64,000 nt of DNA from Panopea generosa (taxonomy: Eukaryota; Mollusca; Bivalvia; Adapedonta; Hiatellidae), in assembly GCA_029582155.1 (NCBI GenBank), contig CM055895.1, positions 9,929,544-9,993,543 of the forward strand, given 5' to 3'. The stretch's first letter is position 1. Each line of letters starts with the position of its first letter. Below, piece by piece: positions 9,961-50,216 of the stretch. The position numbers and the translations under genes are program-made. The notes under the pieces were generated by a model. The model did no database searches. It was not told the origin of the DNA and saw only the letters and a list, made by a program, of their open reading frames with translations.

Positions 9961-12239
9961 AAATATACCTTATTTGGGAGATATCAGGTTCCGTGATAAA
10001 CTAATATCAACTTAATCAAGTAAACTAAAGGATGCTCAAAGTGTAATAGGTTTTTTTTAATTCTTAAATTCGCACAAATTATCTTCTGTTTTTGTTGAGT
10101 GGAAGATAAAAACGTCCATGGATTGTCTTGTGAAATATCCAGAACATAGCCTCCGATAAATTTCAGCAGGTATGCTAGAATTCAAATAGACATGGAACAG
10201 TCGAGAAACTTCAACAGATGTGCAATAATTCAAATAGACAAGGAAACGTCGAGGACATCTGGAATATATGGTTAAAAGTAAAATATCTTGAAACTGTTTT
10301 GAATTAGAGTTTGTTTGCTGTGTACTTGCCTCGAACGCAATGCGGAATGCCTATTGCGTATACATGCATACCTTCTTGCAGACAAATACATGTGCATTCT
10401 TGTAGAAATAAACTTTTATTACTTGCACACTTATATAAGTTAACGTCCGTGTCTGGATATATTGACATGATATATCTACATGTACAGTTAAATATTTCCT
10501 TTCGTTTAGACAGATACATTCTTACTGTCACACAGTGACACGTCTTGAATGGTATAGGTAGACTTGTGGAATTTAACGGAATAGTATCGAAGCAATTGAA
10601 ATTTGGACTTGAAAAAGAAAGAAGAACAGTTAGGCACAAAATCAATACATGATTGTTACTGTTCTTATAATTTTAATAACGGTACTCAATATTTTGACGA
10701 AGATATTGGAAATAAAAAAGTGACGAGTTTGATATTCCGTTCAGTATTATATCAAGAGACAGAAATATTACACTGCTATATTAAAGTCAATGTTATAGTG
10801 GCTGGAATATTTGTGTACGTATCTCACGTATTAAGACATTTGAAAAAACAATGTTGTTATATTACATGAAATATAACAGATGCATACATAAACGATCATG
10901 TAAATAATGTCGTTTAAAACACTGTGTGCAGTATTCAAGCATTAAAAAAGTATGTATAAAGCATTATTTGATGCGGGATTTAAGACACTTCCAACACATA
11001 TACAGTCTATACAGTATATGGAATGAAGCATACTGACAGTGAAAGACTTCAGAATGTATATGAGAATGCACGGTGAGAAGTCAATAATCTAATGACAAAG
11101 TAAGTGACTACACGGTAACGGAGTTATATAAAACATACCTGTATTTAATACAGTTTTCATTTTATAACACAAATACCTCAAGTGTACAGAATATTGTTAC
11201 CGAGTTCACATATATTCTTCAAAAATCATGCTTTGCATTTTAGCGCGATATTTGTTTTAAAATAAACGAATGAAACAGTATCAAATGCAACTGTTTCGAA
11301 AGTTCGATTCAAACATTTAACTTAAAGGTAAACTAGTATAAGAACCATCTTATTCATCTTAAAATAAAATTATCTATTGCTAATATATATATATATATAT
11401 TTAGCAGGGTAAGTAGCATTCATGTCTACATTTCATAGTTATTCGTTATATATATCTGGAAATGGTTGACTTCGATGACTGATTTGATACCAGTATTGGT
11501 ATTGAACAGTTTTTCGCCATCTAGAGCAAAAAACAACAACAACATTAAAAGCAGTTCTTGTCAGTTAGTGTTCGTGTTTGAATTAAAACCAGACGTAAAA
11601 TTAGTATAACATTAATATATTTAAACAGAAAACAACATCTATCTTAACGCACATAAAACAAGGATTATCAATTTTTTTTTCTATTTGTTTTTTTTTATAT
11701 ATTTTGAGATAGTCATTGTGATATAGTATTTTTCAAATGCATTACAACAACATATACAATTACATGTTATCTTCTTTCAAAATGCCGCCCCATGCTTACA
11801 TGTAGGGGCTTTTGTTTTGTCCGAATAATATAAATTATGACTATCTGCGTTCTCTGTAAATATATCGATAAAATAATAATGTAAAGGTAAAACAAACTGC
11901 GGAACGAATCTACCTAATGTGTTAAAAAAATCATACGCCTATAGTATTGTTTCTTATTGATTTCCTAACAGTAAATGTGAATAATATTTTTAAAGAATTA
12001 TAGAAAAAATATTTTTTAAAAAAAAGTTCTTCAAATGTAGCGATTCTTCTAGCAATTTTTGACTTTTTATAGGATTAAAATCATTTTCTGTGTTTTTTAT
12101 GCACGTGTAAAGAATGTCGAATCTTGCACAAATCAAATAAAGTCCGAAGGACACCTATGGCAGATCTGTGCGTTAACAAGCCGTTTCGTCAACGAATCAA
12201 TTATGCCATATACATGTATGAACAACATATGAACTGTGT
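9961..12239. other. AT-rich stretch with a small direct duplication
   Basis: No gene is supported. At 10159-10208 and 10209-10258 a roughly 50-base unit occurs twice in tandem (shared core ATTCAAATAGACA, then GTCGAG). The segment 10670-10770 weakly resembles 47270-47350 (shared ATATTGGAAATA, AAAAGTG, TTCAGTAT). A pure AT run lies at about 11383-11401. Confidence 0.45.
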
Positions 12240-12620
12240 ATCTCTAAATTACAATAACATTCAGTGAGTTTAGGAACTTTCAGTGATTGTTTCGTTAGTT
12301 GTTCCGTTTGCATTTGGACTAGTCATCTGTATAAACAAACACTACGCTTCTGCATCCTTAGGAACACATCTGGTTTAATGTAATTTTGATTTCAAAATTT
12401 CCTGAAAAGTAGACAGAACAAGTTTTATGATACCGTAACCTAACTATCTTTTATGGACTATTTCGTTTCTTACTCAGGTTGTCGTTACAATTGCCGTTAT
12501 GAGTTCTTTATTTTGTCAACAGTTTATATTAAGCATACATGCGTAACTCTTATACAATAATACATTGAATGCTGTAATGATAACAGTGACTTGTTAAAAG
12601 ATACTGTACGTTCAGTAAAA
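12240..12620 (+). repeat. Dispersed module shared with 39940-40220
   Basis: Matching stretches include AGTGATTGTTTCG, GTTCCGTTT, AACAAACACTAC, CTGCATCCTTAGGAA and TTCCTGAAAAGTAGA, in the same order at 39940-40220. The last part (ATTGAATGCTGTAATGATAACAGTGACTTG) matches the opening of the composite unit at 24895. The module therefore normally precedes that unit. Here it is cut off by LINE-related DNA after about 12620. Confidence 0.75.
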
Positions 12621-22634: not shown

Positions 22635-22710
22635 TGGCCCCAAAATGAATCTAATCAGAACCAAAGACTTTTACGAGTAACTGATACACTTTCTCTTGTC
22701 CATTGCTACT
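22635..22710 (-). mobile_element. SINE body fragment
   Basis: AAAATGAATCTAATCAGAACCAAAGAC and GAGTAACTGAT correspond to CAGAATGAATCTGAGCAGAACCACCGTC and AAGTAACTGG at 35051-35110. This is a short, diverged copy on the minus strand. Confidence 0.5.
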
Positions 22711-24470: not shown

Positions 24471-24569
24471 TGTCATAACCGTATTTGTGTTTACAGGCTA
24501 ATATATTTTTCAAGTAGTACTTCATGTAGCACTATGTGTGACGAATGTCAGATTCTAAAAGACAACTTA

Positions 24570-24870
24570 TCAGTCAAATAGACAAGATTTGTTTCGCTAA
24601 CAAAAATAAAACTTGACTGTTTTTCGAAGATAGCAGACGTTAACTAGACGTTGAAACAATGACGTCAATGCATGATTCCATGCCATCTGTTAACCAAAAC
24701 AAGACAAGTTGATACCATAGGATTGTCTGATATATTATGTCGAAAATCTTATATTACATTGAATTTGTACTTGAATTACAAAATTCAAAACCCGTAACTT
24801 TTAGTTCCTACTAATTCATTTAGCTCCATTGTGATGAAGGATCAGAGCTTATATCAACCGGTCTCGAGTT
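24570..24870 (+). repeat. Left arm of a long inverted repeat
   Basis: This arm is the diverged reverse complement of 25680-26005. Matching landmarks read outward to inward are GTCAAATAGACAAGATTT, CCAAAACAAGACAAGT, GTCTGATAT, ATTCATTTA-GCTCCATTG and CAGAGCTTAT. Its inner end (24860-24895) contains a SINE-like core on the minus strand (CCAGGAAACAAACTCGAGA). Confidence 0.8.
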
Positions 24871-25679
24871 TGTTTCCTGGTTAACTCTTATTCAATAACA
24901 CATTGAACGATGTAATGATAACAGTGACTTGTTGAAAGACACACCATTCTCTGGAATTATATAACTTACCAGAAATGTTAAAAAAATTGCTATATGTACA
25001 TTTCTTTCGTAATAAACACCTTCCGTAAGCCATTAAAATAGAACGCGGTGCATACAGTCTTTGTTGTCAGTGAATATTACATTATACATTGTATGATAAC
25101 AATGGTGAATCAGAAAGTAGGAAGTAGGGTTATTTGCGGATTACACACCATAATGAACAGTCAGGTTAGTTACCAAACAAGTGTCAATAAAGTAGCCACA
25201 TGAAAAAATTGCCCGTGTACTTTTAAACAAATGGATGCAAATTCGATATTTATATCTAGCACTTCAGTATGGTGATGAAAATAACGCAATCAAAACAAGA
25301 AACAAGTCAATAATAAAACATGTATCAAGGTTAACAAAACAGATGTGTTATTGCATTAAAATGCTGTAAACAACCTACTAATTTGAATAATGTTGAAGAA
25401 CTCCGAATGTTTAGTGTCAAGTAGCCATATGGGAATAATATCATCGTCATATAAACTAGGTTAGGATTGGAAGAATTGTATTAAAGGACGTTAATTGTTC
25501 ATAAAAAATGTATGTTAGTTATATATGTTTATGGCACATTGTGCCTCACAACAAACTAATGACTTAGTTGTCTTATAGGTTTACATTCATGTGCATTGAA
25601 CTCCAAAAGAAACCTTACAGTTTTGTTTCCTACGATGCCTCTCAAAAAACAACAATTATTACTGGTTTGACCCAGGAAG

Positions 25680-26005
25680 CAAACTCGATAGTGTTTAATA
25701 TTTATAAGCTCTGACGTTTCTTCGCAATGGAGCTTAAATGAATTAATATCAACCAAAAGTCATTGTTTGTGAATTCGTTAATTCAATTACAACTTTAATG
25801 TAGTTTGAGATTTCCGACATGAAATATCAGACATATATACTTATTGCATCGACTTGTCTTGTTTTGGCAAACAGATATCATGGAATTTTACACTAACGTT
25901 ATTGTTCTAACCTCTAGTTTAGTTTACTGCTTTCTTTGAAAAAATTATATTCTCGTAGTCGAACTAAATCTTGTCTATTTGACAGATGATTTGTCTATTT
26001 AAGAC
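25680..26005 (-). repeat. Right arm of the long inverted repeat
   Basis: Diverged reverse complement of 24570-24870, separated from it by about 810 bases. Its inner border (25655-25700) has ACTGGTTTGACCCAGGAAGC and AAACTCGATAGTGTTT, resembling the conserved core of bivalve SINEs, so the arms may include two opposite copies of a SINE-bearing repeat. Confidence 0.8.
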
Positions 26006-26029
26006 GATTTCTATAGTTTTTAATGTGCA

Positions 26030-26460
26030 CTTATTCCGGGCACAAAGAGAAGCGATTTTGTCGAGATCTGCCAGTCACTGTATGCTGCTACACTACAACT
26101 GATCCTAGTTCGGATTGCACAATCATTTACGGATACACCTCATATTGGTCTCCTTAAATTTGTTCAATTTATGAAATATGCATACTGTATGAAGGAATGT
26201 TGACAGCAATTTTACCTGAATATAAACCATAATAGAAATCTTAATATTTTTACAAAAATTCGTATTTAGTATTAAAACGTTAATTTTGCAATTGCAGTTT
26301 ATCTAACAATGGCATACTTTCGGAGCTATTGTTTTTCTCAAATTACGTGGTAAAAAGTATGTTGTATTTAGATTGTCATTATAACAGGTATCACAGAATA
26401 TTTTGTGAAGCAAAATTTATCCATACACTGATTAAATATTATCATACAAACGCTATATTT
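26030..26460 (+). repeat. Dispersed module shared with 50560-50970
   Basis: Landmarks in common are GGCACAAAGAGAAGC, TTTTGTCGAGA-CTGCCAG, ATCATTTACGGATAC, AATAATAGAAATCTTAAT, AAACGTTAATTTTG, CTCAAATTACG-GGTAA and AAATTTATCCATACACT, in identical order. The module is absent from C2 and C3. Confidence 0.8.
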
Positions 26461-27224
26461 ATCTTACAAAATTGAAAATCCATCGACACTCTGCCGAAAT
26501 GATTTTGTTTTAATAAACGCTAATAAAAGCTTATAAGTATCATTTCCTTGAAAATTAATATTATATGCATGCATATAACTATGTAATAGCTATAATCAAA
26601 TACTAGATATAAACAATTTTAAATACGTTTTTGTATAGCTTGTTAAATCTACATCCATACTTTGAAGGACGGATATGTTATGAAAAGGCAATTATCAAAA
26701 AATATGTACGGTAACATGTATTATTTTAACTTAAATCCTGGGAATTTTCATGAAATTCTACCCAGGAAAAAAGTGCAAAAAACAATAGAAAACGTCTTTA
26801 TGCAACGCAACTCCGTTACAGATTCGTTTTCGCTTTAAGGAAATGAGAAAGTATGGTTACAATGGTAACATTTCAATAATATAATTATCCCGAAATAGAA
26901 TTAGAAACTGACATTTGTTACACGCAGTACTACTTAAAGCCTGGAAAATATATTATCCTGTAAACACACATAAGATCATGTCAAGTTACGAAGTTGCTAG
27001 TTTATGTTTATTATAATAGATACAAAATAAGAAATGATTTATATTAACAACATATCTCGTAACAATAAATGAATAAAGGAACTCGCCATCCAAACAGTAG
27101 AAATACAAGCAAATCATGAAACAGATGTATTAAGTAGGTTACAAACGTATGAATTAAGTTATAGTTGCAGATAGTAGCAGATAGTAGCAGGGAACTTTAA
27201 CTTTAACATTCTTTTCGAAAGCAA

Positions 27225-27450
27225 AATATATTCATTAACGAATTAAAAAAATATTAATATTTTTTTAATGGGGTTTAAGTTTTATTGGTAAAAGACTACC
27301 TCAGAATGAATCTGAGTAGAACCACCGTCCTTCAGTAAGAAACCTTTAAATTTTCTTACATAATGGCTTTGTGTCGCGAGGGACTCGAATCTATGGTCTT
27401 ATTGGTGAGAAGTAAGTGATTAAAAAACGACGCCTTGGGCTAAGAATAGG
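27225..27450 (-). mobile_element. tRNA-derived SINE, fairly complete
   Basis: On the minus strand a B-box-like ATTCGAGTCCC (about 27380) is followed by the body GAAGGACGGTGGTTCTACTCAG (27309-27345) and the tail TTAAACCCCATTAAAAAAATATT (to 27240). Head, body and tail are in the order expected for a bivalve SINE. A second copy occupies the equivalent place in C2 (35045-35190), so this insertion predates the duplication. Confidence 0.65.
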
Positions 27451-28671
27451 ACAAACGCCAACCTATGCAATTCAATATTAACTGAATCACAATCTCTGGC
27501 ATGTGTGCACCATTTTTCAAAAATGTATTTGAGACAACGATGGTTATTTAATCCACCTATGTAATCATCGCGCGACTTCGTACGTGCAGCACTTGGCGTA
27601 CTAGTGTATATTCTAGTAGTTTTTACTTCACATTTTATTATCAGTAACAACACAGTATGTTCTTATGTATAATGTTAGATGTTTTGGTAAGTAATATTTG
27701 TATTTTATCATCAAACGTTTCTGCTGATAGTGGCATCGTTATCTATTGAACGTTTTTTCTTATTTTAATGATATTTTATTGCAACCTTTTGTAATGTGAC
27801 TCTAGTTGAATTGCACTTAATTCTGTGAGCAGTTTGTATTTGTACATACAAATGTTAGCGCTGTTCAATAGAATAAATTTAAAATAATGTTCTTGTTTCA
27901 TAGGCTTGTAACACATTGTTATATTGTTCAGCATATTTTTATGTGGACTGGTATTATAGACAAACATCAAAACTTATGGTTGTTTCAAGTAAAATATAGT
28001 TGTTTAACTGCGTAAATTCTGTGTAGGTGGTTTAATATAAATGTCATTACATCACTAGAACATGAGCTAGCTTATCAACACAATAAGCGAATCAAATATA
28101 TCACAACGGAAAATCCAGAATAATGAAAACAACTTAAGCGAAAATGGCAGAGGACAAAAGATTTATAAAATGAATTTTAAACTGATATCATCACTATACA
28201 GTAACGGAATTTGGTTAATGAGTATAAGAGGGAGGCTGCTCGTATATCTGTAAAAAGTGTTTATTTCAGTTAAGATCGTCATTAAAGATCACTGGTATCG
28301 AGGAAAACAGCTGCCAAAGTAATGACGTGACTTAATTGTGAAGCATTTCAATACAAACGAAGGTAAATTGGTATTTGCATGAAACAAATGCAAAGATGTG
28401 TTTCAAGAAAATGTTCGTTATGTGTTGAATTCACGTAAAGAGTATTGAAATATCAAACAGAAATAGCATCATTTCAGATTTAAGCTCCACATTAGAAGTT
28501 TACAAATAAAGAAGAAACAAAATTTAGGATATTGCATAACCATATTCATTTATTTAGTATTATTTGTTGACTCGCAAAATAATAACAATAATTAATGTAA
28601 TTATGTAAGACAAACTTACAGCATAGCCATTCTGTTTATTTATATGGGCCATGTTTTCAATATAATATTTT

Positions 28672-30719
28672 AACAGTAGGAAAAACATCTGGCCCAGATT
28701 CATGTAATAATTATATACTCAAAGAACTCACATGAATTATCTTTTCCGCTTTGTAAACTTTACAACCGATCTCTCAAATATGTACTGTTCCAAAATTATG
28801 GAAAACTGCATATGTGTGCGATTTATAAAAAAAACGACCCTACGGATGTATCAAATTACCGCCCTATTTCACTTCTGTGTTGTATTGAAAAGGTTTTGGA
28901 AAAATATATTCATAAACATATATTTAATTTTTCAATAGACATAACATTATTACAGCACTCCAGTCTGGTTTTGTCCCTAACGATTCAACTGTTAACCAAT
29001 TAGCTAATTTATATAATACTTTTTATAAAGCATTGGATGAACGTAAAGAGATTCGTACTGTCTTTTGTGATATTTATGAAGCTTTTGACAGAGTTTGGCA
29101 TAAGGGACTCCTTTTTAACTAAATGCTATTGGTATAACAGGACCTCTTCTAATGTGGTTAACTAATTACCTAGAAAACCGTAAACAAAGTGTTGTTGTAT
29201 TCGGTTGTAAATCTGATATGTCTAGTTTGAAAGCCGGAGTACCTTAAGGATCTATCCTAGGGCCTCTCCTGTTTCTTGTCTATATAAATGTCATTGTAGA
29301 AAATATAAGCTCATTTATAAAACTATTTGAATATGATACAAGTATTTTTATTATAGTTGAAACACCAGACCTTGCCGCTACTTTGTTAAACTCTGATGTC
29401 AGAAGAATTCATATGTGGGCTTATAAATGGCTTGTCAAATTCAATCCAAACAAAACAGAATCCATGTGTATTACCCATAAAATCAATAAACCGATACACC
29501 AAAACCTCATAATGAATAATGATATTATACAAGAAGTTACTACGCATAAACATTTAGGTCTTACTTTTTCTATCAATGGGTCATGGCATGAACACATACA
29601 ATTCATAAAAGATAAGGCATGGAAAAGAATAAATATTATGCGGCTATTAAAATTCCAATAAGACAGAAAATCAGTTTAGATTATATATATAACATTCATA
29701 AATCCAATACTAGAATATGCAAACATTGAATGGGACAATTGCACTACATATGAAGCTAATAAAATCGAAAAATTCTCCTTCGTACCTATGTTCTCTTATC
29801 CCTGAAAATGTTGGGAATCTTAATAACTATAACTTTCGAAATGCACATGATCTTAGGATCTTCTCATGTAATACACAATTATACTCTAATTCATTCATAC
29901 CCTCTTCTGTACGTGACTGGAACAGTCTTCCACAAAATATAAGAGAGTAAACCTCTCTTAATATATTCAAAACAAATATTAATGCTTATACACAAAATGT
30001 TCCCAGACACTATTATGTAGGTAACCGAACTGCCAAAATATACCATTCACGACTCTGTATAGCTACAATAGTCTGAATCAACATTTATCTTATAAATACA
30101 TAGTAGCAAATTCAAATTGCCTTTGTGGTGAAATCGAGAATACATATCATAATTTATTTAGTTGCAGACTATTTCGCCATTATAGACAAAGTATGATGAC
30201 CGAAATAAAATTAACTAACCCACATGAACCCTCCTCAAAGGGCCTTTTGTATGGAAAGGAAACTTTTTCACCTACTGACAACAACTTAATTTTCATGGCA
30301 GTGCAAAATTGCATTACAAAAACCAAACGTTTCGAATATCGTACACATTTGAATAGACCTCGATTTTGTCTCATTCGATGTTATGTTTATATACACAAAA
30401 ATATGAAGTCGTCGCGTCTCTATAAGTTTTCATTCTCTTCCATAAATAGTTTTTATAATTTAAATTATTCTAAATAAACTATTGTTTTTTTTTATATTTT
30501 ATGAATATTTTGCCAAACAGAAATTAGTACGGAACAATATGATAAAGTCTATAACGGAAAGTAAAATAACTGCCACGGTAGCAGATTCACACAAGCTTCA
30601 AAAGCTTTTATCTGTACCCTTTCCACATGATGTGTTAGATGTATGAATTATTGCTTCATTGTTAAATTTATCTAAATATATGTACTTATGTGAATAAAAT
30701 ATTGTTTAAACTAAACTAT
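28672..30719 (+). mobile_element. 5'-truncated LINE with 11-bp target-site duplication
   Basis: Bounded by TATAATATTTT at 28661-28671 and 30720-30730, this LINE interrupts C1. Reverse transcriptase blocks can be read across frames: KTSGPDS-like start, AIYKKNDPTDVSNYRPISLLCCIEKVLEKYIHKHIFNF, LQSGFVPNDSTVNQLANLYN, FCDIYEAFDRVWHKGLL, then GVP-GSILGPLLFLVYIN with a stop where glutamine belongs, LFEYDTSIFI where the catalytic ADD reads EYD, and WLVKFNPNKTESMCIT. A C-terminal part follows (SYLCSLIPENVG, NSFIPSSVRDWNSLPQNIRE) after an apparent internal deletion near 29770, then a zinc-binding end (NCLCGEIENTYHNLFSC). The roughly 240-base 3' untranslated end finishes at GTTTAAACTAAAC. The element is dead through several stops and frameshifts. 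Confidence 0.92.
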
Positions 30720-30884
30720 TATAATATTTTGTACTTTCGATAGTGACTTATACGCCCATCTGATCGTGCACTCCATTTTCATTTATTGTTTATAAGTTGG
30801 CTCTGTGTTTGTCACAGGAACTGTCACTTTAATACAATATATATTTAATGAATGACTGACGGATTAACTGATACATTTACTTCC

Positions 30885-31490
30885 TTTGATACTTACTTAC
30901 TTACTTACTTTCTTACTTACTTAATAACTTACTTACTTGCTTACTTACTTACTTACTCACTCACTCACTCACTCACTCACTCACTCACTCACTCACTCAC
31001 TCACTCACTCACTCACTCACTCACTCACTCACTCACTCACTCACTCACTTACTTACTTATTTAAATACCTACTCACTTACTTGCTTATTTATATAATTAC
31101 TTTCTTATTTACATACTTACTTACTTACTCACTATTACTTACTTCCTACTTTACTTACTTATGTCATACTTATTCATATATGCAATACTTACTCACTAAA
31201 TTACGTACTCAATTGCTTACTCACTGACTTACTTACTAACTTAAGTAATTATGACTTACCTATGTAATAATTATTCACTTAATCCTACATACTCACTTAC
31301 TTACTGATTTACTTATTTACTTATGTAATACTTTCTTACGTATGTCATACTTACTAACTCGCTCGCAAACTCACTCACTCACTCACTTCCTTAATCAATT
31401 TATTACTTGCTTACTTACTTACCTATGTTCTTACTTACTTGTTTACTTACGTACTAACTTACATAGTAACTTACTTATTTACTTACTATC
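30885..31490 (+). repeat. ACTT/ACTC tetranucleotide tract in C1
   Basis: Degenerate ACTT units surround a nearly pure ACTC run of about 23 units (30956-31048). It occupies the same place in C1 as the tracts in C2 (37060-37390), C3 (44100-44575) and, inverted, C0 (14860-15070). Frames rich in serine-leucine-threonine-histidine here are artefacts. Confidence 0.95.
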
Positions 31491-32212
31491 ATTCGAAATT
31501 CTAATATAACACATACATTGAGATTTCAACAGTTGTAATCGTTTGCATCCTCAACTGCTTTCTTAGTCTTATTTATGACATATGGATGAAATAAAGTTTT
31601 CACGGTGCTTCAACATTGTCTACATGCGCGGGTCTTTATGTGGCTCATAATATTAGATATAAGCTTTTAATAGATTACAGACGACTAAAATGCAAATGCA
31701 GACCATGTGTTAGCTACCGGATTACAATAAATGAACTGTTTGCCCCTCGGCAGAGACAATTCGCTCTACTAGTAAATTTATCGTATGTATTTTATCGCTT
31801 TGGATAAAGTATAGGATGAAACGTATGCAATATAAAATGGCGTCAACATTATTTATTCTGACAGAATGATTTGTGTTTTATATGTAAAATGTGAGTTATG
31901 GCTTTTGTTGGTTTTATTGAATATTTAAATCAATATATAACATAATATAATGTTAAACTTAAAAACCAATAGAAGTATTTTTATATGAAAAAAAAATACA
32001 GAAAAGCGCAAAGATAATTGGCAAGTGAGATGTAAGATCGTCTATTTTAATTGCATTTAATTCATAGATATTCATATTTTTTGTCAAACTTTCTCATGAA
32101 ATATGTTTAAATGGCCGGATTTGAACTATTATTCTTCACAGTTTTATTGATACCAAAACATCACCGTCGGTAGTTTAAGACCAAGTAGTTATCCATTTAG
32201 AACAAGTGTAAA

Positions 32213-32545
32213 ATGACATTTGATTACTTTCACCGACTATTGTCACACTGGTCAAACAGAGTTGCCAGCCAGGAGCTTTGGAGGAGAACCAAACAAAAAC
32301 CAGTCTTCATCAGAACCATCCAAGAACGTAGGATCACCAAACAAAATCTGGACTTGGTTGACAAGGCCGTAGAAGAGGAGGTCAACCAACCATGACCCAT
32401 CAAAAGGACTCTCGAAGCCGAGTTGCGGTCTATTTTGATATTTTGGGAGAAGAAAAGCGGACAGTACGAGACAGATCCAGTTGGAGGACAGTAGTGATGG
32501 CCCATAACCCGCAAATGGGCAAAGATGATTGAATAAGTAACGTAA
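32213..32545 (+). mobile_element. LINE 3' coding tail inside C1
   Basis: The frame reads HWSNRVASQELWRRTKQKPVFIRTIQERRITKQNLD and, after shifts, an equivalent of the basic RRRGDRP block. This matches the C-terminal end of LINE proteins that I recall as ELWRRTGQEP, IKRRKW, ITRQALDWNPQGKRKRGRP. C2 and C3 hold the same tail at 38090 and 45340, so this LINE inserted before the units multiplied. The reverse transcriptase itself is not present nearby. Confidence 0.65.
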
Positions 32546-32689
32546 GTAACGTTAAACATTGAAAGAAATGGATACATTTTTAAGCGTTTAATGTGTAATC
32601 TTTAGTGTCGTTTAATACGCATTTCCTGTATAACATGATGGCAAATTATAACATCAGCAAATGACAACATTTGAATAGAATATGTAGCC

Positions 32690-32790
32690 GGGCCTGTTTA
32701 GCCCAGTTGGTAACGCGTGTCGTCAGCTATCATCTACTTGCGGAGATGGGTGTGGTCGTGTTCTAGGTAATTTTCAAGAATACCAGTAAG
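32690..32790 (+). mobile_element. tRNA-like SINE in C1
   Basis: GGCCTGTTTAGCCCAGTTGGTAACGC is a good A-box region, but the anticodon arm is deleted relative to the C2 copy (38530). The following CATCTACTTGCGGAGATGGGTG and GAATACCAG are shared with C2. Confidence 0.6.
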
Positions 32791-33419
32791 TAATCATCTT
32801 TTGTAAATAACATGACGATAAATATTCAAACAAAATACAACAAATAAAAGGTGACGTATCAATGACCAATACTGAATTATCCGAACGATTCGGTTTCTCT
32901 AAAGATACACTTAGTCATATCATTAATGTTCTACAGTATAATCAAGCATATAATAATTGTTTTAAAGATGTGTGTTATGAATTTTAGAATTTCATGTAAA
33001 ATTTATTTCTTAAATAAAAGTTGCAAACATTGTTAAAACCCGTTATCCATTTTGCTGTCATATGGATACGTTGAATGGTCCATTGTATCATTTTGTATAA
33101 TGTTGCTCATTTAACCTCAGTGTCATATGTACACCAGATTCAAACCTAATAATAAATAGATTCCAAAGATGAAATACTACAATAACAAGCACGGCAACAT
33201 ATCTTTTTCATGATCTATTTTACCTCAGATAATAATAATTAAGTTTTTAACAGAATTGAAAAAGCTAATAACTTTTATTTTGACGAGCCAATATTCTGAA
33301 CACATTGTTGTTGTATGCACTCGGTGTAGTACTTAAACTGGACTAAAAATAATAGAATTACCATGTAGCTTAAGAGAGAGAACTTATACGGCAAGGTAAT
33401 TGGAATGACCTTCTGTGCA

Positions 33420-33600
33420 TTCGCATAATCTGTAGTACGACCCAGCCCTCCCAATTGGGTCGGTTCAATAGAAATGTTAGAAAAGCCACAAATAGGTATG
33501 TTGATTGGTCAGTTGCTCCAACTGAACGCTTGAATGACTCTGCAGTTTAGTAGGCGTTCAATTGCTATGAAGTGTGGGACAGGCATATACTTCCCTGGTT
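33420..33600 (+). repeat. Dispersed module, copy 2 of 4
   Basis: Matches 9780-9960, 45525-45605 and 51340-51520 (GTAGTACGACCCAGC, AAAGCCACAA, TTGATTGGTCAGTTGCT, GCGTTCAATTGCTATGAAG). It lies between the end of C1 and the start of C2. Confidence 0.8.
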
Positions 33601-35044
33601 TTTCATTTGGTGTTAATAGACGTGATTCAGGATGTCTTATATGGTCTAATATTTAACTGTATATAATTTCCTTTTCATTGTACGAATACACGCATACTGT
33701 TATTTGAATAACCTATTGAGTGTCTTAACACGGTACACGTTAGGCATGCATGCATCTGTTTTATAAAATAATCGATTCATATGTACGCTAAACTTATAAA
33801 AGTGACTTGTACAAAGACACACCGTTCTCTGGAATTGTATAACTAATATATAGCGAATATTACATTATACATAATATGAATACAGTGGTGAATCAGAAAA
33901 TATGGTGTTATGTTACTAGCGGTAAAACTGCGAATATCGGTACGAAAGTGTTTGATCATAATTGCCCGTGCACTTTTTAAACAATTGGATGTTAATTAAA
34001 TATTTCACTCGATGTCTTAGTATAATAATAAAAATTACAAAGTAGGAACAAGAAACAAGTAAGTAACAAAACAGGTATCAAGCCTATAAAACGGATGTGT
34101 TATTGCATTGAAATGTTACAATGTTTAAGTACTTCGAATTTTAGTGTCATGTAATTATATGGAATTGTATCATCTTCATATAAAATAGGTCATGATTGGA
34201 TGAATTGACGTTAATTGCAATCGTGCAATATTCATAAAATGTCTTGGTTATATGTATTCATGGAACATTGTGCCCTACAACAAAACTCATGTCCTAGTTG
34301 TTTGATAGGCTTACATACATGTGAACTCAAATCCTAAAGAAACCTTCCAGTTTCATTTCCTAAATATTTGCTACATTGCATTTCCAAGTTCATTAAACAT
34401 TATATTGATGCTAAATTATCAACTTGGTATCCATTGTCATCATTTAATCTGGATCGTTTTTAAATTATTCGGCCGATCTCAGCCTATAGTGAATTGCACG
34501 TGAAAAAAAAGGTTACACTCATTGTTACATCACTTGTTAAGTAATAAGAAAATGTCACACGACAAGTCCTGTGGGCGAAACAAATTGCGTCTATTTGACT
34601 TATTAGTTGTCTTTTAATCAACGCAACGCCGTTATAGGTTAGTTTTCTTTACAGAAATGACAAGTATGGTAACACTGTAACATTTTAATAATGTGGTTGA
34701 CATTATTATCTCGAAATAGAATTAGAATCTGACATTCTTTACACATAGTACTTCATAAAGACTGAAACATATATCATCCTGTAAACATATATAAGATTAT
34801 ATCAATGTATGAAGTCACTAGGTTATCTTTATTTTAACATATACACAATAAAAAATAAAGTATGCTACAAACTTACAAAAAGTTACAGCTGAGGGTTGTA
34901 TGTTAACAGACTATTTACCAGGGACCTTTTATTGGATGCGACACCATTGACATTCTATTTGAAATCAAACTTCATTAACAAATTAAAACATATATTTGAT
35001 TTGTTTTGTTTTTTGTCATTTTCAACACATTGCATATCCAGTTT

Positions 35045-35190
35045 TATTGATGCATGCCGACCTCAGAATGAATCTGAGCAGAACCACCGTCCTTCCGCAA
35101 GTAACTGGCAAACTTTCTCACATAAAGTTTCTGTGGTCGTAGAAAGAGGTAAGTGCTCTTGAGACGGGACCTTGGGCTAAGGATAAGACA
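35045..35190 (-). mobile_element. SINE in C2, equivalent to 27225-27450
   Basis: GACCTCAGAATGAATCTGAGCAG, AACCACCGTCCTTCCGCAAG and ACCTTGGGCTAAGGAT match the C1 copy in order. The flanks also match, so it was inherited with the unit rather than inserted separately. Confidence 0.65.
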
Positions 35191-35548
35191 AACGCACACC
35201 TATGCAATCCAAATTAACTGAATCACAACCTCGGCATGCATGTATCTTTTTTGTCAAACTGCCTTTAATATGATGAAAACCATCCGTACCATATTCAGTT
35301 CCAAATATAAGAAACAACGGGACCAACTGGATCCATCATCCAATGTTGAACAAACTATAACATAATCAGCTTACAAAATATTAATAAGTATAATATAATA
35401 AGTTCAGCATATAAATACAAAAAACAAATGACACAATGTCAGCTTCTTTGAAAGATCCATATAGCAATGAACGTTCCATAGGAGCTTAAACTCGGTTAAC
35501 GATAGCACACAACCTCGCTCATTCCCCGTCTCAACAGCATAAGGCACA

Positions 35549-35636
35549 CAGTGTAAACGAAAGTATCCCGGTCAAACAGTGTAAATGTAAGTATCCCGGT
35601 CAAACAGTGTAAATGAAAGTATCCCGGTCAAACTGT
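35549..35636 (+). repeat. 28-bp minisatellite, about three units
   Basis: CAGTGTAAA recurs at 35549, 35577 and 35605, with AAGTATCCCGGTCAAA between. The units are nearly identical, implying recent amplification. The array is not seen in C1 or C3. Confidence 0.92.
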
Positions 35637-37059
35637 TATCTAACACACACAGCATTAATTTGGTGTAAAAACAGAAATGGGAATTTCGTTTGTGCTGATA
35701 TTGTGATCGTTGTGTTTATTGAACAGTATGTTACTGTTGAACTTATTTAATGAAACTGTATCGCAGTTGTTTCTGCACTGTAAATTTAGAAAAAAAATTA
35801 TGCTTGGAAATTGGGGGATTAATACATGATACCGGAAGTCTTCTTCTACTTTGTCAACAGTGTACACACAGAGCAGAAAAAAGCTCTTATATGACACATG
35901 ACCCCTACTTTTCTCATCTCATCATATTTTGGAAGTGCAGAGGTTGACAAACAATAAAATGTAAGTTTCACTTCTTTCGCTAAAGTCTCTTTACGAAGGA
36001 CAAGTCTTCAAATGTTTAACTATTCATTATAGAATAAAGAACAATCAATCAATGGTGGGGTTACACCTAGAAATGTTATTGTTGTTCCATAGGCTAACTT
36101 TATATTATCCTGTTTAAAAGTATCGTAACATATTGTTATATTGAAAAGCATGCGTTTTGATGTAGATTGATATTATAGACAAACAACAAAATATTATTGT
36201 TTCAAGCGGAATATAGTTGTTTTACTTCGTAGGATTTGTGTAATGGAAATGTCAATGCATCACTAGATCACGAGCTAGCTTGTTGTGTCACAATAAGAAA
36301 ATTTACCGAATCAAATATCTTTCAACGGGAAAATTTAGCAACAATGGCAGAGTGAAAAAGATACAAAATGAATCAAACGGATATCATCACTATAACGTAA
36401 TGAAATTTGGTTATTTTGTTTAATTGAAAGGCTACTAATATATATAAACTATCTTTAAAGTTTGTTTATTTTAATTAAGATCGTCATTAAATATCACTAG
36501 TAATGGTGAAAATAATAATGTAACTTAATTTTAAAAACTTTCCAATACTGTAACAAACGATGTTAAATTGGTATAGGCATGAAACAACAGGCACATATGT
36601 GTTCAAAGAAAATGTTCGTTCTGTGGAGAAATCACGTAAAGCATGTTGAAAGGATATCCAAGGTACCAAACAGAAATAACATCAAATCAGATTTAACCTC
36701 CCCATATGATTCTCGTGATCTTTTTAAGTCGGTATCCTATACTATCACTGACTCCGTTTGTTTGTATTTACAAAAAAAAAGGGAAAGGAGAAACACACCT
36801 TATGATAGTTAATAACTATATTTATTTATTTTGTATTATTTATTAATTTGAATAATAACATCAATGATTTATGTAAATTATGCAAGATAAATTTAAATAA
36901 AGCATAGCCATTCTGTTTATTTATATATGTCATGTTTTTAATATAATATTTTGTATTTCCGATAGTAATATATACGTCCATTTGATCGAACACTCATTTA
37001 TAATTCACATGTATATGTTGTCTATGTGTTTGTAAACTGAACTGTCACATTTATACAAT

Positions 37060-37179
37060 ATTTACTTACTAACTAACTGACGGACATACAGACTTATTCA
37101 CTTTCTTACTGACTGACTGACGGAACTATTGACTTATTAACTTACTTAGTTACTTACTTACTAACTGACTTACTAACTA

Positions 37180-37232
<53 letters not shown>

Positions 37233-37390
37233 TAAACTTATCAAATAAACCAACTTAGCTACTTACTTACTTATTTACATACAAACTTACATGTAAAATT
37301 TCCTTACCTATGTTATACTTACTATTTTACTTTCTTACCTTTTTTCGTACCTACTTGCTTACTGACTTACTTACTGAATAACATTCATAA
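37060..37390 (+). repeat. ACTT tetranucleotide tract in C2
   Basis: A pure TTAC run of about 14 units (37175-37231) lies within degenerate ACTT/ACTG units. It is at the same relative place as in the other copies of the unit. Confidence 0.93.
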
Positions 37391-38089
37391 TTCTAGCGTT
37401 ACACATACTTTGTAATGTCAACAGTTGTAATAGATTGCATCCCTTAAAGCTCTCTTAGTCTGATTTATAGTATATGGATAGCATAAACATTTCATGAGGC
37501 TTCAGGTCTGTCTACACACGTGATCGTTATTATAGATGTAAGCTTTTAATACATTACAGACGACTAAAATGTAAATGCAGACCATGCGTTAGCTTCCGGT
37601 TAACAATAGATAAATCGTTTGCCCCTCGGCAGAGGCAATTCGCTATACAAGCAAATTTATTGTATGTATTTTATTATTTTGGAAAAGTAGATGATAAAAC
37701 GCATGCAACATATAATACCGTCCACTTTATTTAATCTGAGAGAAATGATTTGTGCTTTTTATGTAAATATTAGGCATGAATTTTGTTGTTGTTTTTTTGT
37801 TGATGGAAAGTTTGATGAATATAATATAACATAATGAAGAACTTAAGATACATATACAGAACAGGCAAAGACAATTGGTAAGTGAGACAATACAATCATC
37901 TATTTAATGAACAGATAATTATATATATTGTCAAACAAACTTTCTCATCAAATATGTATAAATGGTAAGATTTAAACTATTTTTCTTCACAGTTTTATTG
38001 CTATAACAACCTCTTTGTCGGTGTTTTAAGACTGTGTACTCGTAGTTATCTATATTATAGATCATGGTTAACAGGTCGGTGCCACGGTC

Positions 38090-38400
38090 CGATATCTGAT
38101 TATTTTGACTGACTAACGTTACACTGATCAAACAGAGTTTCAAATCAGGAGCTTTGGAGGAAATTCAAGCAAAGAACAGTCCTAATCCCCACCATCAAAG
38201 AACGCAACATCACGAGACAAACTATGAACTGGAATTCACAATGCCGTAGAAGAGGAGATCGACCAGCCATGACCTGTCAAAAGGACTTTTGAAGCTGAGT
38301 TCGGTCCATTCGGTTTTTGTTGGGAGAAGCAAAGCATTCAGCACGAAACAGAGCCAGATTTAGAACGAAAGTGAAGGTCCCATGGACAAAGATGATTAAG
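38090..38400 (+). mobile_element. LINE 3' coding tail inside C2
   Basis: This copy preserves the diagnostic block best: ELWRKFKQ, then ITRQTMNWNSQCRRRGDRPAMTC, close to the ITRQALDWNPQGRRRRGRPRTTW ending of some LINE proteins. It has frame breaks and is equivalent to 32213 and 45340. Confidence 0.7.
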
Positions 38401-38529
38401 TAAATAACGTTACACAATAAATGAAATGGATGCACATTTATACAATTGGGGTGTAATCTTTAAATAAAGTGGTATTTAATGATTATCGGTTATATTATTA
38501 CATAGTAATTATACAACATTTGAATAGAA

Positions 38530-38670
38530 TATGTAGCCAGGCCTGGTTCGCTCAGTCGGTAACACATCTGCCTACCAATCCAGGGGTCGTGAGTTATCAT
38601 CTACTTGTGAAGATGGGTGCGGTCGAGTTCTGGTTAACCTTCGAGAATACCAGGAAAGGGTGATTATTTT
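38530..38670 (+). mobile_element. tRNA-like SINE in C2
   Basis: GCCTGGTTCGCTCAGTCGGTAACACATCTGCC is an excellent tRNA D-arm and anticodon-stem sequence, followed by TACCAATCCAGGGGTCGTGAGTTATC, a slightly altered anticodon and T arm. The body CATCTACTTGTGAAGATGGGTG and GAATACCAGGAAAG follows. No acceptor-stem pairing is present at the 3' side, so it is a SINE and not a tRNA gene. Confidence 0.72.
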
Positions 38671-39939
38671 CACCGAGTTAAGGTTTGTGCATAAAATCAC
38701 GCTAAATATTCAAACAAAAAACACAAATATAAGAAGTGTTATTACTGGTCAATACTGAATATTCCAAACGCTCTAGTTTCTCTAAAAAAAACACAAAAAC
38801 AATTAGGTAAATCAATAAAATTATACAGTGTAACCTATCATATTATATTGTCATTAAGATGGGTTTTTTTTAGAAAGTTTTCAGATATCCACGTAGGCGA
38901 ATCTTATATCTTAAGTAAAAGTTGCATATGTGGTAAGAAACCGTTATCCCTTTTGCTATCCTATGGATACGTTGAATGATCCATTGTATCCATTTGTATA
39001 ATGATGCTCATTTTAAGTTCAGTTTCATATGTATACAAGATTTATATCTTAGTAAAAAATAGATTTTGACATAGATACATAAAACATCTTAAAAATGAAA
39101 TGGCACAAAAACGAGCATAACAACATATTTCCTTTTTCATGATCACTTTCATTTTAGATAATAAACGATAATGTCTTAGCTGAAATAAAAAAATCTAATA
39201 ACTTTAATTTGACAAGCCAACTTATTTAACACATTGTTCTAGTAATCACTGATTGTAGTACTTACAACACTGGACGAATTACGACATTTCCAATTTGTTC
39301 TGAAAATAATAATGTTTGATTTGTTTTTAATAATATTCATGTATACAGTAATCTGTGCAACTGTCTTTCGTAGAAATGTGTCTTCAAGGTGTAGCAGTAT
39401 CCTTTATCGCAATATATTCTTCAATTGCAAAACTTTGCTATAACACACCATCTGGCACCATATTGCATAAAACTATCTAATTTCAATAACACTTGCTTTA
39501 TACAATTGACAATATTTGAGCTAGCTTTCATATAAAACAAATTTCCTCAAAATTGTCAACTAGTAAAAAATCCTTCTTTTAACAAGAATTATTGTTAACG
39601 ACTGAATCTTTCTATTCAGTTAATTGAGTTCTCATATCAACCCCAAATCCAAATTGGTATCAACTTCATATGTGATTGCAAATCGATCAAATCTTTCATT
39701 TCTGCTGGAGAAGCACACACAAATGCATAACTTTTCGAACAACCCTTGTTTAAAGAAATTGTAGCCCTGTTCACACATTATTCTGAACAGTATTAAATTC
39801 CAATTATTGATGTTCACTTGTAGTTTTATGAGTATAATAAATATTCCTTCTATACAGCAATCCGATTGGTCAGTTAATTTATTTTATCATAGATGAACGA
39901 AATATCAACAGCGGACTATTTCCTATTAAGATTATTATA

Positions 39940-40220
39940 ACATTTGGTAAGTTTTAAACTTTTAGTGGTTGTTTCGGTAGTAGTTCCGTTTATATTTGGA
40001 CAAGGCATTCCAGAAAAACAAACACTACACTTTTGCATCCTTAGGAAAACATTTTTTTAATAGAATTTTGATTTCATAACTTCCTGAAAAGTAGATTGAA
40101 CTCTTTTCATAATACATCTTGTGCTTCTTAAACTATCGATCATTTTTGGACTATTTCGATTTTACGCGGGTGTCGTTATAAGTACTTTTGTTTGTTAACA
40201 ATTTATTTCAGATATATTTT
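39940..40220 (+). repeat. Dispersed module preceding C3, shared with 12240-12620
   Basis: Collinear with the 12-kb copy through TAGTGGTTGTTTCGGTAGTAGTTCCG, AAACAAACACTACAC, GCATCCTTAGGAA and ACTTCCTGAAAAGTAGA. It lies a few hundred bases before C3. The equivalent piece was not found before C1 or C2. Confidence 0.78.
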
Positions 40221-43200
40221 TGTTTTGGAATTGCAAGATTTATGTTATATTCTAAGAGTTACATTATCACGCTTAATATCCATTGGACTAGTTATTGGTC
40301 CAAGATACAAGTTAAGAGGTCGTATTTACTAACAATTCTTGAGAATAGTCTTAGACTTAATCTTGAAAATCCATATTTTAACCTTAGATATCTAGTTTAC
40401 CATGACATATAGAATACTTTTGAGAGACTATTTGAATATACATACACTTGGTGTCCCTATATGCTAGCAAATTTTGGCCTAAATATGGTATTCAAGTGTG
40501 TTTTCCAAAATCAATTAGTGAGTCTAAGAATATTCATAGGAATGGTTGGTGAACACCAGCCCTGGTCAAATATCTAACTAAAGATAACGTCACTTTTTTT
40601 GAACAAAGTAACGCATACTAACATTTTGAATACTAACTTTTCAAAATATGGTATAAGTTAAGAATGCATGCATGCATAACTTATGCAATTAAACATTTTG
40701 CGCTGTAACTAAGACAATACCATGTCCAAAGAACACCATTCTGTAAAATTATATAACTTAACAAAAATATGAATAAAAAGTACATATACATATGTACATA
40801 CATTTCTAACGTTATAGACACCTTTTATAAAATAAAATACCAAAACAGAACGAGATGCATACAGTCTTTGTTGACAGTGAATATTACATTATACATAATA
40901 AAACAATGGTATATCAGAATATATGGTTATTTATGGAATCCAGACAATAGTAACATAATGTACAGTCATGTTGGTTACTACACATCGTTGCGAAAGTGTT
41001 TAATTATAATTACTCGTACACTTTTTAAACAATTGGATACAAATTGAATATTTCACTAGAGAGAATCAGTATGATGATAAAATAACAAAATCGGATATAA
41101 GCAATGAGTAGGTAATAAAACATGTATCAAGGTTAAAAAACAGATGCGTTATTGCATTAAAATGCTGTAAACAACCAACAGTTTTGAATAATGTTTAAGC
41201 ACTCCGAATGTTTAGTGTCAAACAGCCATATGGGAATATTATCAGCTTCATATAAAATAGGTTAGGATTGGAGGAATTCGACAGAAAGACGTTAATTGTA
41301 AAAGTACAATGTTCATAAAATGTGTGTCGGTTATATATATATATATTTATACGAAATTCATGACCTTGTTGTCTGGTAGATTAACATACATGTGCACTTA
41401 ACTACAAAAGAAACCTTACAGTTTTATTTCCTAAATATATGATTTATTGCACGTCCAATTTCATAAAAAAATGTATTGATGTTGAATTATCAACTGGGTA
41501 ACCATTGCCACCATTTAATAGAAATTGTGTGTCCGTGCACACACGCAACGCACAAGAATTGACAACTATATTATTCGCTTTCTCTCGGTCTTTCATGAAT
41601 TGCACTTGGAAAAAGGTTGCACTCATGGTTACAACATATGTTCAGTATAAAGAAAATAGTTAACCAGCAACAACTAACAGGTGGATATCAACGTTCCAAA
41701 ACAGTTGATATGTCTTTATGAATCTCTGACATTTAAGTGAAATAAAAATTGTAAGCATTCTTATGGAGTTGAGTGTAATTCACATACCGGACTGGGATAG
41801 TATAGACACGTTCAGGTGAGACCAGTCAAATAATAGTATATATCAGAAGATAAACGCTTAATGCTTCCATCACAATGATTAAGTAATTCACTTCGCAATA
41901 TAACGGCAACCCTCATGTACTACGTCGTAAAAAAAAAAAGTTGCCGTACTACGGTAGAGCAGGGCACCGGCAAGCGCTTCCGGGTAATAAATCGTCGGTG
42001 TCAACTACACAAGGACTTTGGCGTTATACAAAAACATGTCATCCACTAAAGATTGGCATTTTTCATTGAGCATACTCATTTCTGCGTGTTTTTAATATAG
42101 CATTCTGGACTGAATTGACCATGAATTGATTATGTTGTCAGCATCGAAACAAGTTACGTGTATATTTTAACTAGTGCAGTTAATCACCTTTAAATGATAT
42201 ATAAGACCAAAAAAAGGTCAGATTAATCTGTGAGCGGTTTGTATTTGTACATACAAATGTTATCGTTGTTTAATAGAATTACTTTAAATTCTTCTGTTTA
42301 ATAGGGTTGTAACACATTGTTATATTGCAAAGCATGTTTTTTTGTATGTACTGGTATTATAGACAAAACTATATTTGTTTTAAGCAAGATCTGATTCTTT
42401 TACTGCGTAAAATATGTGTAGGTGGTCTAACATTAATGTTAATACATCACTAGAACAGGAGCTAGCTTATTAACACAATAAGAACATTCATGGAATCAAA
42501 TATCTTGCAACGGGAAAATCCAGAATAATAAATATAACTGTAGCGCTAATGGCAGAGTGAAAAAGAGCTAAAAAATGAATTCTAAACGGATATAATCACT
42601 TTATGTAGTAAATCAGTTTACTGGAAAGGCTGCAAATGTACAATATTACATAAACTATCCTTAAAGTTTGTATATTTTAATTAAGATCGTAATGCATGTA
42701 AAAGATCACTGGTATAGATGAAAGTACATGCTAAACTAATAACCTGACTTAATTGTAAATCATTTCAATACAAACGAAATTAAAATGTTATTGATCTGAC
42801 GTAAACGGTATTGAAGAGTTATCCACAGTATCAAGAGAAATAACATCATATCAGCTTTAAGCTCCGCATTAGAAGTTGTACTCATGTCATTTCAAGTCGA
42901 TTTCCTATATTTTCATCACTTTCGTTTGTTTGCATTGTATTTTAATATTATGATTTTTTGTTGTTTCTATCCAAAATGAGTTGTAGTAGTTTTATTAAAT
43001 AAAACTTTGCAATTTTTGTAAATATTTACGATAAAAAGGCATTACAAAAAGCATTGGCTTTTGAACAATTATATGATTGTTTTCAAAATCATTAACACTT
43101 CAGAAACTATCAGGGATACATGTACCAGTGATTTATTAAACATATATATGGATGATAAAACAACTCAATATACATGTAAATGTTAAAACGTTACGATTCT

Positions 43201-44099
43201 AAGTTTCTTTTTTACTTTTGTTCACGCATTAAATGATAGAACCGCTTTCTAAAGTAAGTGTGGTACATGTAGGAATGAAAGAACACATTAATCACAACGA
43301 GTACTAGTTCAAACAATGGATTACCACAATCAATTCAGTAAAGAAATGAAGATGAAATATATGATGTGTCGATATAAAATGTAAGAGTACAGTTCGGTAC
43401 GATAAGATTATTTCAATTAGTCTGGCGAAAGACGCATGCTAGATGATTAGTTACCTATTTAGAGTGAGATTCGGCGACATCACGTCGCACTTGTTTGCAA
43501 AATGTTCGATAAATCCCTGAAACGCAAGTTGGAATTTTGTAATTTACAATATCTTTGTTTGACGTTTATTGTTAAAACGATAGCTTAAACAAATATTAAA
43601 TATTTCATTTTAAACTTACAAATGGATATATATGGACTTTGGGAACGCAGTTTTTTTTATATGATTAGAAAAAATTCAATAATGGGACAAGTTCTGCAAT
43701 GTAGCCAACACAATATACTGTGCTGTCAATATTCATTATGAAACATTTGTCATGAAATCAGTATTGCTGTAGGTAAAACAACTGTTACAATGTTTGTTTG
43801 TTTTCTATTTCTGCATTAGTTAACTAATACGACAGCCCTATCTTAATTTTTTAAGTATTATTAATAATGAAAATTATAATTACTGTAAATTATGTAAGAC
43901 AATTTTAAATATATATATAACATAGTCTTGTTCATTATTTATATATATCATGTTTATACAATTTATTTTGTATTTTTGATAGTGATTTATACGCCCATCT
44001 GACTGTGCGCTTCATTTCCATATATTGTTTATAAATTTGCGATGTGTTTGGCAATTGAACTGCAACTTTTATACACTATTTACTTACTGGCGGACTGTC

Positions 44100-44356
44100 G
44101 GACATACTTATTTCACTTACTTACTCACTATTTTCTTACTTACTTGCTTGCTTACGTACCTACTTACCTTGTAAAACTTACCCACTCACCCTATCGCTAA
44201 CTTACTCAATCACTTACTTGTTTTTTACTTACTTATCTACATACTTACTTATTTACGTACTTACTTACTTACGAACTTACCTTCTTAGTTATTTACTTAC
44301 AAACTTACTTACTTACTTTCATTTTTACATAGTTATTAACCTATGTAATACTTATC

Positions 44357-44417
<61 letters not shown>

Positions 44418-44575
44418 TCTTTCTTACCTTCTTAATTACGTACTTACTAACTTTCTTACTTTCATTTTACATAGTTACTTACCTATGCAATACTTACTTC
44501 TTACGTACCTCTTTATCTACTTACTAAATTACTTATCTTCTTATATACTTATCTACCTAATTACTTACTTATTAA
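44100..44575 (+). repeat. ACTT tetranucleotide tract in C3
   Basis: Degenerate ACTT units with a pure run of about 15 units at 44352-44416. A 153-residue frame over it, rich in threonine, tyrosine and leucine, is a translation of the repeat. Confidence 0.95.
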
Positions 44576-45339
44576 CAACCATTAATATTTTAACGCTACA
44601 CTTACAATTGGATGTAAACAGTTGTAATATATTGCATCCCTATAGACTTAGTCTGATTTATTGTATATGGATGACATAAAGTGTTTACGAGGCTACAAGT
44701 CTGTCTACACGCGTGGGTCGTTGTGTGGCTCATAAGTATAGATGTAAGATTTTAATAGATTGCAGACGACTAAAATGTAAATGCAGAAGATGTGTTAGCT
44801 TGCGAATTACAATAAATGAACCGTTTGCCCTCGGCAGAGACAATTGCCTCTACCAGTAAATTTAGTATATGTATTTTATCTCTTTGGATAGAGAAGTAGA
44901 TGAAACCCATGCAGCATAAAATGACGTCCGCTTTATTTAATCTGACAGCAATGATTTGTGTTTGTTTTATATGTAATATTTAGGCAAGGATTTTGTTGTT
45001 TGTTGTTGGATATTTTAATGAATATAATACAATATTACGATTTACTTAAGAACCAATGGAAGCATTAGTTACTAGGGGACACGTTTAAGCAAACTGTATT
45101 GTATATATATGGACAACAGATATAGAAAAGAGCAAAGATAAGTGGTGAGACATTACGATCATCCATTTTAATTGCATTTATTTCATATACATTCATATTT
45201 AAACAAACGTTTTCATGAAATATGTAGAAATATGTACGGTCGGATTTGAACTATTTTTCTTCACAGTTGTATTGATAAAATAACGTTACCGTCGGTAGTG
45301 TATGTTATCCATAACTTATAGATCAAGGTTTAAAGGTCA

Positions 45340-45520
45340 GATATATGATAAGTGTCACTGATGTCACACTGGCCAAACAATTTCCAAAAAGGGGCTTTTG
45401 AGGAAAACCAAGTAGAACCCAGTTTTCATCACCACCAGCAAACAACGCAGCATCACCAGACAAAATTTGGACTGGTTTTACAAGATTAGAAAAGAGGTCA
45501 TTTATGTGTAGGTTGATTCT
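45340..45520 (+). mobile_element. LINE 3' coding tail inside C3
   Basis: CATCACCAGACAAAATTTGGACTGG encodes ITRQNLDW in the same context as 38090-38400 and 32213-32545, but the copy is cut off shortly after. The 155-residue frame on the opposite strand (45323-45790) is a chance frame. Confidence 0.6.
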
Positions 45521-45524
45521 ACTG

Positions 45525-45605
45525 AAAGTTTGAATGAGGTAACAGTTTAGTAAGCGGTCAATTCCTATGAGTTGTGGGACATACATGCATAGATATTGTT
45601 TCTTG
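45525..45605 (+). repeat. Dispersed module, copy 3 of 4 (partial)
   Basis: CTGAAAGTTTGAATGAGGTAACAGTTTAGTAAGCGGTCAATTCCTATGA and GTGGGACATAC match the second half of the module at 33500-33600. It directly follows the truncated end of C3. Confidence 0.7.
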
Positions 45606-50200: not shown

Positions 50201-50216
50201 ATCAGGCTGTCAATAG

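Follow-up and report, generated by a model that had tools for sequence, protein, structure and literature searches.

Segmental duplications are operationally defined as blocks of at least 1 kb that share at least 90% identity. In local clusters of them, low-copy blocks of kilobase scale adjoin one another in direct and inverted orientation and carry transposons as passengers. Macrosatellites, or macro-tandem arrays, consist of many homogenized non-coding units of several kilobases arranged head to tail. The non-autonomous Helentrons of oyster, Cg_HINE, are described in PMC7492417 as lacking coding capacity; they occur in dispersed copies and have an internal tetranucleotide microsatellite, a 3' palindrome and short left and right consensus flanks with 11-12-bp subterminal inverted repeats (subTIRs). 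Here we describe a 64,000-nt stretch of the Panopea generosa genome (GCA_029582155.1, contig CM055895.1, 9,929,544-9,993,543, forward strand; 32.0% G+C by base counts), hereafter the window, in whose positions all coordinates are given. It contains three related units of several kilobases on the same strand (C1, C2 and C3) and an inverted neighbor (C0).

A preliminary description of this DNA offered two readings, a macro-tandem array or a very large non-autonomous element inserted serially. Local duplication is the part that stands. We conclude, with a probability of about 0.9, that the cluster arose by ancient local duplication, both direct and inverted, of non-coding DNA that has drifted since, a history that is ordinary in kind; a dispersed giant element is rejected. 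The observed support is the common order of blocks, the restriction of the tested blocks to this locus, near-equal divergence among copies and the later insertion of a long interspersed nuclear element (LINE).

Repeat structure of the locus

Comparison of the window with itself gave 149 matches at E ≤1e-5, including 84 of at least 150 bp. The long collinear plus-strand matches predicted earlier are present at the expected offsets (~5.8-8.9 kb for C1-C2, 6.2-7.3 kb for C2-C3 and 12.8-15.8 kb for C1-C3). Inside 24880-45520, 45 matches have an offset above 4 kb, and none of 50 first-order Markov shuffles produced any. Chained alignments of the direct units have gap-free identities of 78.2% over 4059 columns (C1-C2), 78.8% over 2994 (C1-C3) and 78.3% over 2486 (C2-C3); those with C0 reach 78.2% over 825 columns (C1), 75.3% over 965 (C2) and 75.2% over 1087 (C3). 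Best-chain scores for the six pairs are 476-2108, versus 0-92.5 with the subject reversed.

Block positions were obtained from profile searches and tile searches of the window (Table 1). The order is L, L2 or IR, B2, B3, B4, B5, a tetranucleotide array, B6, B7 and B8. L2 and B4 are missing from C1, B4 and most of IR from C2, and IR, B2 and B8 from C3. Self-comparison thus bears out three same-strand units with ordered common blocks and private inserts and losses. The borders first proposed agree with the block borders to within ~65 bp, but the left-upstream block of C3 lies outside the range then given. An imperfect palindrome at 40304-40574 (two 43-nt arms, 74% complementary) separates this block from L in C3 and is absent from the remnant near 12.2 kb. 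The left edge of L is common to C1, C3 and that remnant, and a weak stretch to the left of L is common to C2 and C3 (33636-33781 with 40557-40676, 65%). When left and right ends of C1, C2 and C3 were compared for terminal inverted or direct repeats, only chance-level matches of 10-15 bp were found (best E 0.038), in agreement with the absence of common terminal inverted repeats reported before. The ends of the units are not sharply defined.

A plain head-to-tail layout describes C1, C2 and C3 but is too simple for the locus, as the neighboring C0 is inverted and adjoins C1 head to head at 24882-24885. C0 also takes in the inverted sequence at 24434-24885, to the left of C1, and is therefore larger than previously described. 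The inverted arm of C1 differs from that of C0 by a Kimura two-parameter (K2P) distance of 0.264. Tiles of the units compared with 1-14300 and 45621-64000 gave 18 matches, one of them a border self-match, and the reversed control gave none. The tile matches outside the cluster correspond to the 12.2-kb remnant, the dispersed repeat R, the LINE tail and a piece of the C1 insert, with no other core block.

Genome-wide distribution of the shared blocks

The shared blocks were searched against 1.47 Gb of genome sequence in 39 contigs, block by block rather than with the whole of C2 as query. At most 40 candidates were scored per query and common words were skipped, so restriction to the locus is secure only for queries with every candidate scored, as for B6 plus B7, the span from B3 to B5a, B4 and the left-upstream block. 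The five candidates for B6 plus B7 are the four units C1, C2, C3 and C0 plus a single 75-bp match located on a different contig; the two for B4 are C3 and C0; the two for the left-upstream block are C3 and the 12.2-kb remnant. B3 to B5a (12 of 12 candidates) returned 14 matches: 6 belong to the cluster, and the other 8 all fall in query positions 687-829, between B3 and the LINE insert. For L, scoring of 40 of 53 candidates gave 41 matches, 4 from the three units and 37 to its last 54 bases, a dispersed scrap. For B8 (40 of 111 candidates scored) 2 of 40 matches are C1 and C2 and 38 belong to an inner dispersed repeat at query 767-922; for IR (40 of 349 scored) 2 of 40 are C1 and C0, and the other 38 fall within its first 115 bases. 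No long match to the bodies of L, B3, B8 or IR was found outside the cluster among the candidates scored. The tested blocks are thus restricted to this locus as far as scored, and they carry old dispersed scraps. This restriction supports local duplication, and the large element is rejected.

One alternative is three or four insertions at this place of a very large non-autonomous transposon that lacked terminal repeats. It would accommodate the presence of both direct and inverted copies, their near-star divergence and the left edge of L common to C1, C3 and the remnant. It is nevertheless very improbable. The tested blocks have no long matches elsewhere among the scored candidates, and dispersed copies with common ends were not found; on this reading, loss or decay past detection would have to have affected almost every other copy. 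The three direct units lack terminal repeats, and similarity continues to the left of the supposed end, between the remnant and C3 and weakly between C2 and C3. L of C1 does lie between inverted arms of ~330 bp, a foldback-like arrangement, but the whole arm occurs only in C1 and C0.

Stray modules and C0 had also been taken to favor a mobile origin for parts of the unit. This applies to R, whose copies at 9.8 and 51.3 kb are dispersed, and to the dispersed family with a tail at 50.2 kb; it does not apply to the 12.2-kb module, matched only by the left flank of C3, or to B4 of C0, matched only by C3. An extension of the array to the R copies at 9.8 and 51.3 kb was dropped because R is dispersed. 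Comparison with Cg_HINE, as described in PMC7492417, shows a tetranucleotide array inside non-coding sequence in both, but no dispersed copies of the blocks tested here were found. A Helentron reading was set aside on these descriptions, although no search was aimed at subTIRs or other end motifs.

Divergence and order of events

Whole-chain K2P distances between copies are 0.25-0.30, and those of single blocks 0.20-0.38. Differences unique to C1, C2 and C3 number 181, 220 and 190 over 2058 columns, and divergence is similar among the copies. No strong tree emerges from 592 columns with 10, 7 and 5 quartet sites. The largest of these counts (10) groups C0 and C3 against C1 and C2, a split also marked by B4, which is found in C3 and C0 only, while C1 and C2 have a common junction without it. 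Short matches elsewhere (e.g., query 692-828) span the B4-less junction of C1 and C2, so B4 may have been either gained or lost.

Some dispersed scraps preceded the copying, because they occupy the same place in several units (at the end of L in C1 to C3, and in B8 of C1 and C2). B7 may hold another, a LINE end as judged by eye. The LINE in C1 is the converse case, as it entered after duplication. It is flanked by an exact 11-bp repeat (13 bp with one mismatch), a target-site duplication; its insertion site is uninterrupted in C2 and also, in a more diverged form, in C3. Other copies match its tail at up to 93% identity, compared with 78% between units.

Tests for coding, RNA and function

A duplicated gene or RNA locus, with exons or structure conserved in the units, is a second alternative. 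Similarity is raised in some 150-column windows (82.7% three-way identity versus 68.3% overall; permutation p 0.002), and a stretch at 31655-31804 stays open through 50 codons in both C1 and C2. Conservation maxima at 60 and 100 columns are not significant, the open stretch shifts frame in C3, and many of the longer tblastx matches between units (at most the best 40 per pair) cross stops. Mismatch periodicity in 13 blocks of at least 400 columns showed no pattern recurring between pairs, a test that indels blur; the left block of C2-C3 has the widest spread (0.254/0.175/0.181), and several others spread by 0.05-0.06. Together with Pfam searches of 20 open reading frames (ORFs), these comparisons detected no gene in the shared blocks. 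Among 10 ORFs from 24 to 45.8 kb only two Pfam matches were obtained, both weak and both in the C1 LINE. No Rfam family was found in the window at gathering score, nor in 38400-38900 at E ≤1, and ARAGORN reported nothing. A gene or RNA locus is scarcely credible on this evidence, and the uneven conservation and the open stretch are too little to claim constraint.

The earlier statement that no host gene lies inside the units holds for the shared blocks, although C1 contains coding remains in the form of the decayed LINE. Twelve stop-to-stop frames of at least 150 aa occur in the window and three touch units: 30025-30477 is within the LINE, 44059-44679 (+) is mostly the C3 tetranucleotide array read as protein, and 45323-45814 (-) overlaps B7 of C3, extends past the unit and has no Pfam family. 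A tRNA-like head of a short interspersed nuclear element, suggested by a motif seen by eye at C1 32696 (equivalent to C2 38546), was unconfirmed, without a match from Rfam or ARAGORN. Scans of viral contigs with two conserved patterns gave 0 matches each. No maintained function was seen, and we infer that there is none.

Origin of the cluster

The locus resembles a local segmental duplication cluster in that blocks longer than 1 kb are found in several places at low copy number. It behaves as an old, decayed one outside the formal definition, far older than that definition usually covers. It resembles a macrosatellite in its head-to-tail, non-coding units of several kilobases, but there are only three direct units, ~22% apart and not homogenized, with one inverted neighbor.

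Several observations weigh against ancient local duplication as stated. Gap-free identity is 75-79%, far under the 90% usual for segmental duplications. The copies have no single clean period, as raw L-to-L spacing is 8.9 kb for C1-C2 (6.0 kb once two C1 inserts are subtracted) and 6.9 kb for C2-C3. C0 lacks L and B3, and 22010-22087 was dropped as a C0 block, since the piece recurs at 22577-22697 and on two other contigs. Beyond the cluster there is a weak B7 profile match at 46885-46935 (E 0.0018), unseen with tiles; other profile matches outside the units have E of 0.02 or worse. Finally, the genome-wide evidence of locus restriction covers the left-upstream block, L, IR, B3, B4, B5a and B6 to B8 only.

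We propose that the process would have started from AT-rich intergenic DNA that already held old transposon scraps and a tetranucleotide array. Several local copyings may then have occurred within a short period, giving three head-to-tail units, an inverted one that faces the first head to head, and a fifth that was copied at least in part. The probable cause is a replication-based accident or unequal exchange; afterward the copies would have diverged at about equal rates, losing pieces and gaining later transposons. A short period is suggested because abutting direct and inverted copies are of about equal age. Unequal crossing-over easily yields direct copies but not inverted ones, while template switching in replication can yield both. 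Since copies in both orientations are similar in age, we favor template switching or repeated local rearrangement over unequal crossing-over alone. The joints are too decayed to be read for mechanism.

Two more specific versions of local duplication can be considered. Head-to-tail growth by unequal crossing-over, with C0 as an early inversion of one unit, is possible though we doubt it. The direct C1-C2 and C2-C3 arrangements are consistent with this, as is B4, common to C3 and C0 and missing at the same junction in C1 and C2. C0 is diverged like the others and so is no recent copy, but an early inversion is compatible with that. That all four or five units came from one replication accident, a template-switch burst that would make the locus a readable fossil of a single event, is unlikely.

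Mobile passengers and other elements

Passengers of the cluster are included in Table 1. The LINE tail had 1500 candidates in the genome, and 39 of the 40 scored lie outside the window at 90-93% identity. Two ORFs of the C1 LINE have weak RVT_1 matches (E 0.0016 and 0.0051, under the Pfam cut-off), and a PDB search with a LINE ORF found no credible relative (best E 0.083). An ORF at 6713-7342 (+) is related to the reverse transcriptase part of this LINE (7052-7342 matches 28970-29283) and has no Pfam family. R had 2000 candidates, and 39 of the 40 scored are outside the window. Of 42 matches from a search in which 40 of 4356 candidates were scored, 39 belong to the repeat in the private stretch of C2 and lie outside the window; that search, whose query included B2, is uninformative on the rest of the query, as even the known matches of C1 were absent. 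At seven of eight fetched loci the B8 repeat matches both C1 and C2. The B7 piece is, we presume from reading it by eye, the C-terminal end of an RTE-type LINE.

Table 1. Units, blocks and passengers of the cluster (window positions).
Feature	Position	Strand	Evidence or remarks
Unit C1	24882..33349	+	Profiles, tiles, chained alignment
C1 blocks	L 24882-25639; IR 25661-25999; B2 26797-27529; B3 27819-28503; B5 28570-28671 and 30718-30861; tetranucleotide array 30885-31490; B6 31492-31986; B7 31981-32378; B8 32374-33347	+	
Unit C2	33782..39281	+	Profiles, tiles, chained alignment
C2 blocks	L 33782-34367; L2 34349-34559; B2 34613-35259; B3 36047-36768; B5 36847-37057; array 37057-37385; B6 37386-37852; B7 37845-38255; B8 38251-39280	+	
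Unit C3	39856..45500	+	Includes left-upstream block; core 40676-45500; profiles, tiles, chained alignment
C3 blocks	Left-upstream block 39856-40239; L 40676-41438; L2 41421-41658; B3 42224-42939; B4 42986-43724; B5 43863-44099; array 44100-44578; B6 44580-45076; B7 45105-45500	+	
Unit C0	14329..24885	-	Inverted, incomplete, much private sequence; profiles, tiles
C0 blocks	IR 24885-24557; part of B2 24558-24434; B4 16021-15313; B5 15319-15085; array; B6 14792-14329	-	
Left-edge remnant of fifth unit	12175..12618	+	Left-upstream block (12175-12543) continues into first 76 bp of L (12543-12618)
C1-private insert	25998..26797	+	First 490 bp recur at 50526-50999
Decayed LINE, private to C1	28672..30716	+	Target duplication; dispersed tail
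75 bp of B7	32245..32319	+	One match elsewhere in genome; stretch present in C1, C2 and C3
Old dispersed repeat in B8	33165..33301	+	Same place in C1 and C2 (C2 38987-39230)
R, ~205-bp dispersed repeat between C1 and C2	33427..33639	+	Other window copies 9791-9982, 45477-45616, 51336-51487
High-copy dispersed repeat in C2 private stretch 35260-36046	35766..36000	+	Genome search

The private stretch of C0 holds tandem arrays of 144-, 51- and 3-bp units (18478-20018, 20087-20639 and 20827-21253), the first with strong GC skew. A small inverted-pair repeat, 22010-22087 (-) and 22577-22697 (+), also occurs in B2 of C1 and C2. ORFs at 56397-58964 (+), which we take to belong to a DIRS-type element, gave no Pfam family in the three searched, and a PDB search with one found no credible relative (best E 0.018); an inverted piece of ~400 bp inside C0, 24021-24442 (-), matches the first of these ORFs at 80% identity. 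Elsewhere in the window, 284-2113 (-) encodes a Mutator-like transposase (Pfam E 1.1e-31), after which comes an ORF with a weak resemblance to YqaJ, under the cut-off. A 298-aa open frame at 61979-62875 (-), coiled-coil-like by eye and perhaps a host gene, matches no Pfam family above cut-off, and a PDB search gave nothing at E ≤0.001.

Implications

Within one window, a multi-kilobase repeat with a common order and stray modules resembles a giant transposon, and such cases call for caution: here the genome search shows local duplication with mobile passengers instead. With branches of about equal length and a later insertion that can be placed in time, the cluster could serve the study of neutral decay in duplicated intergenic DNA.

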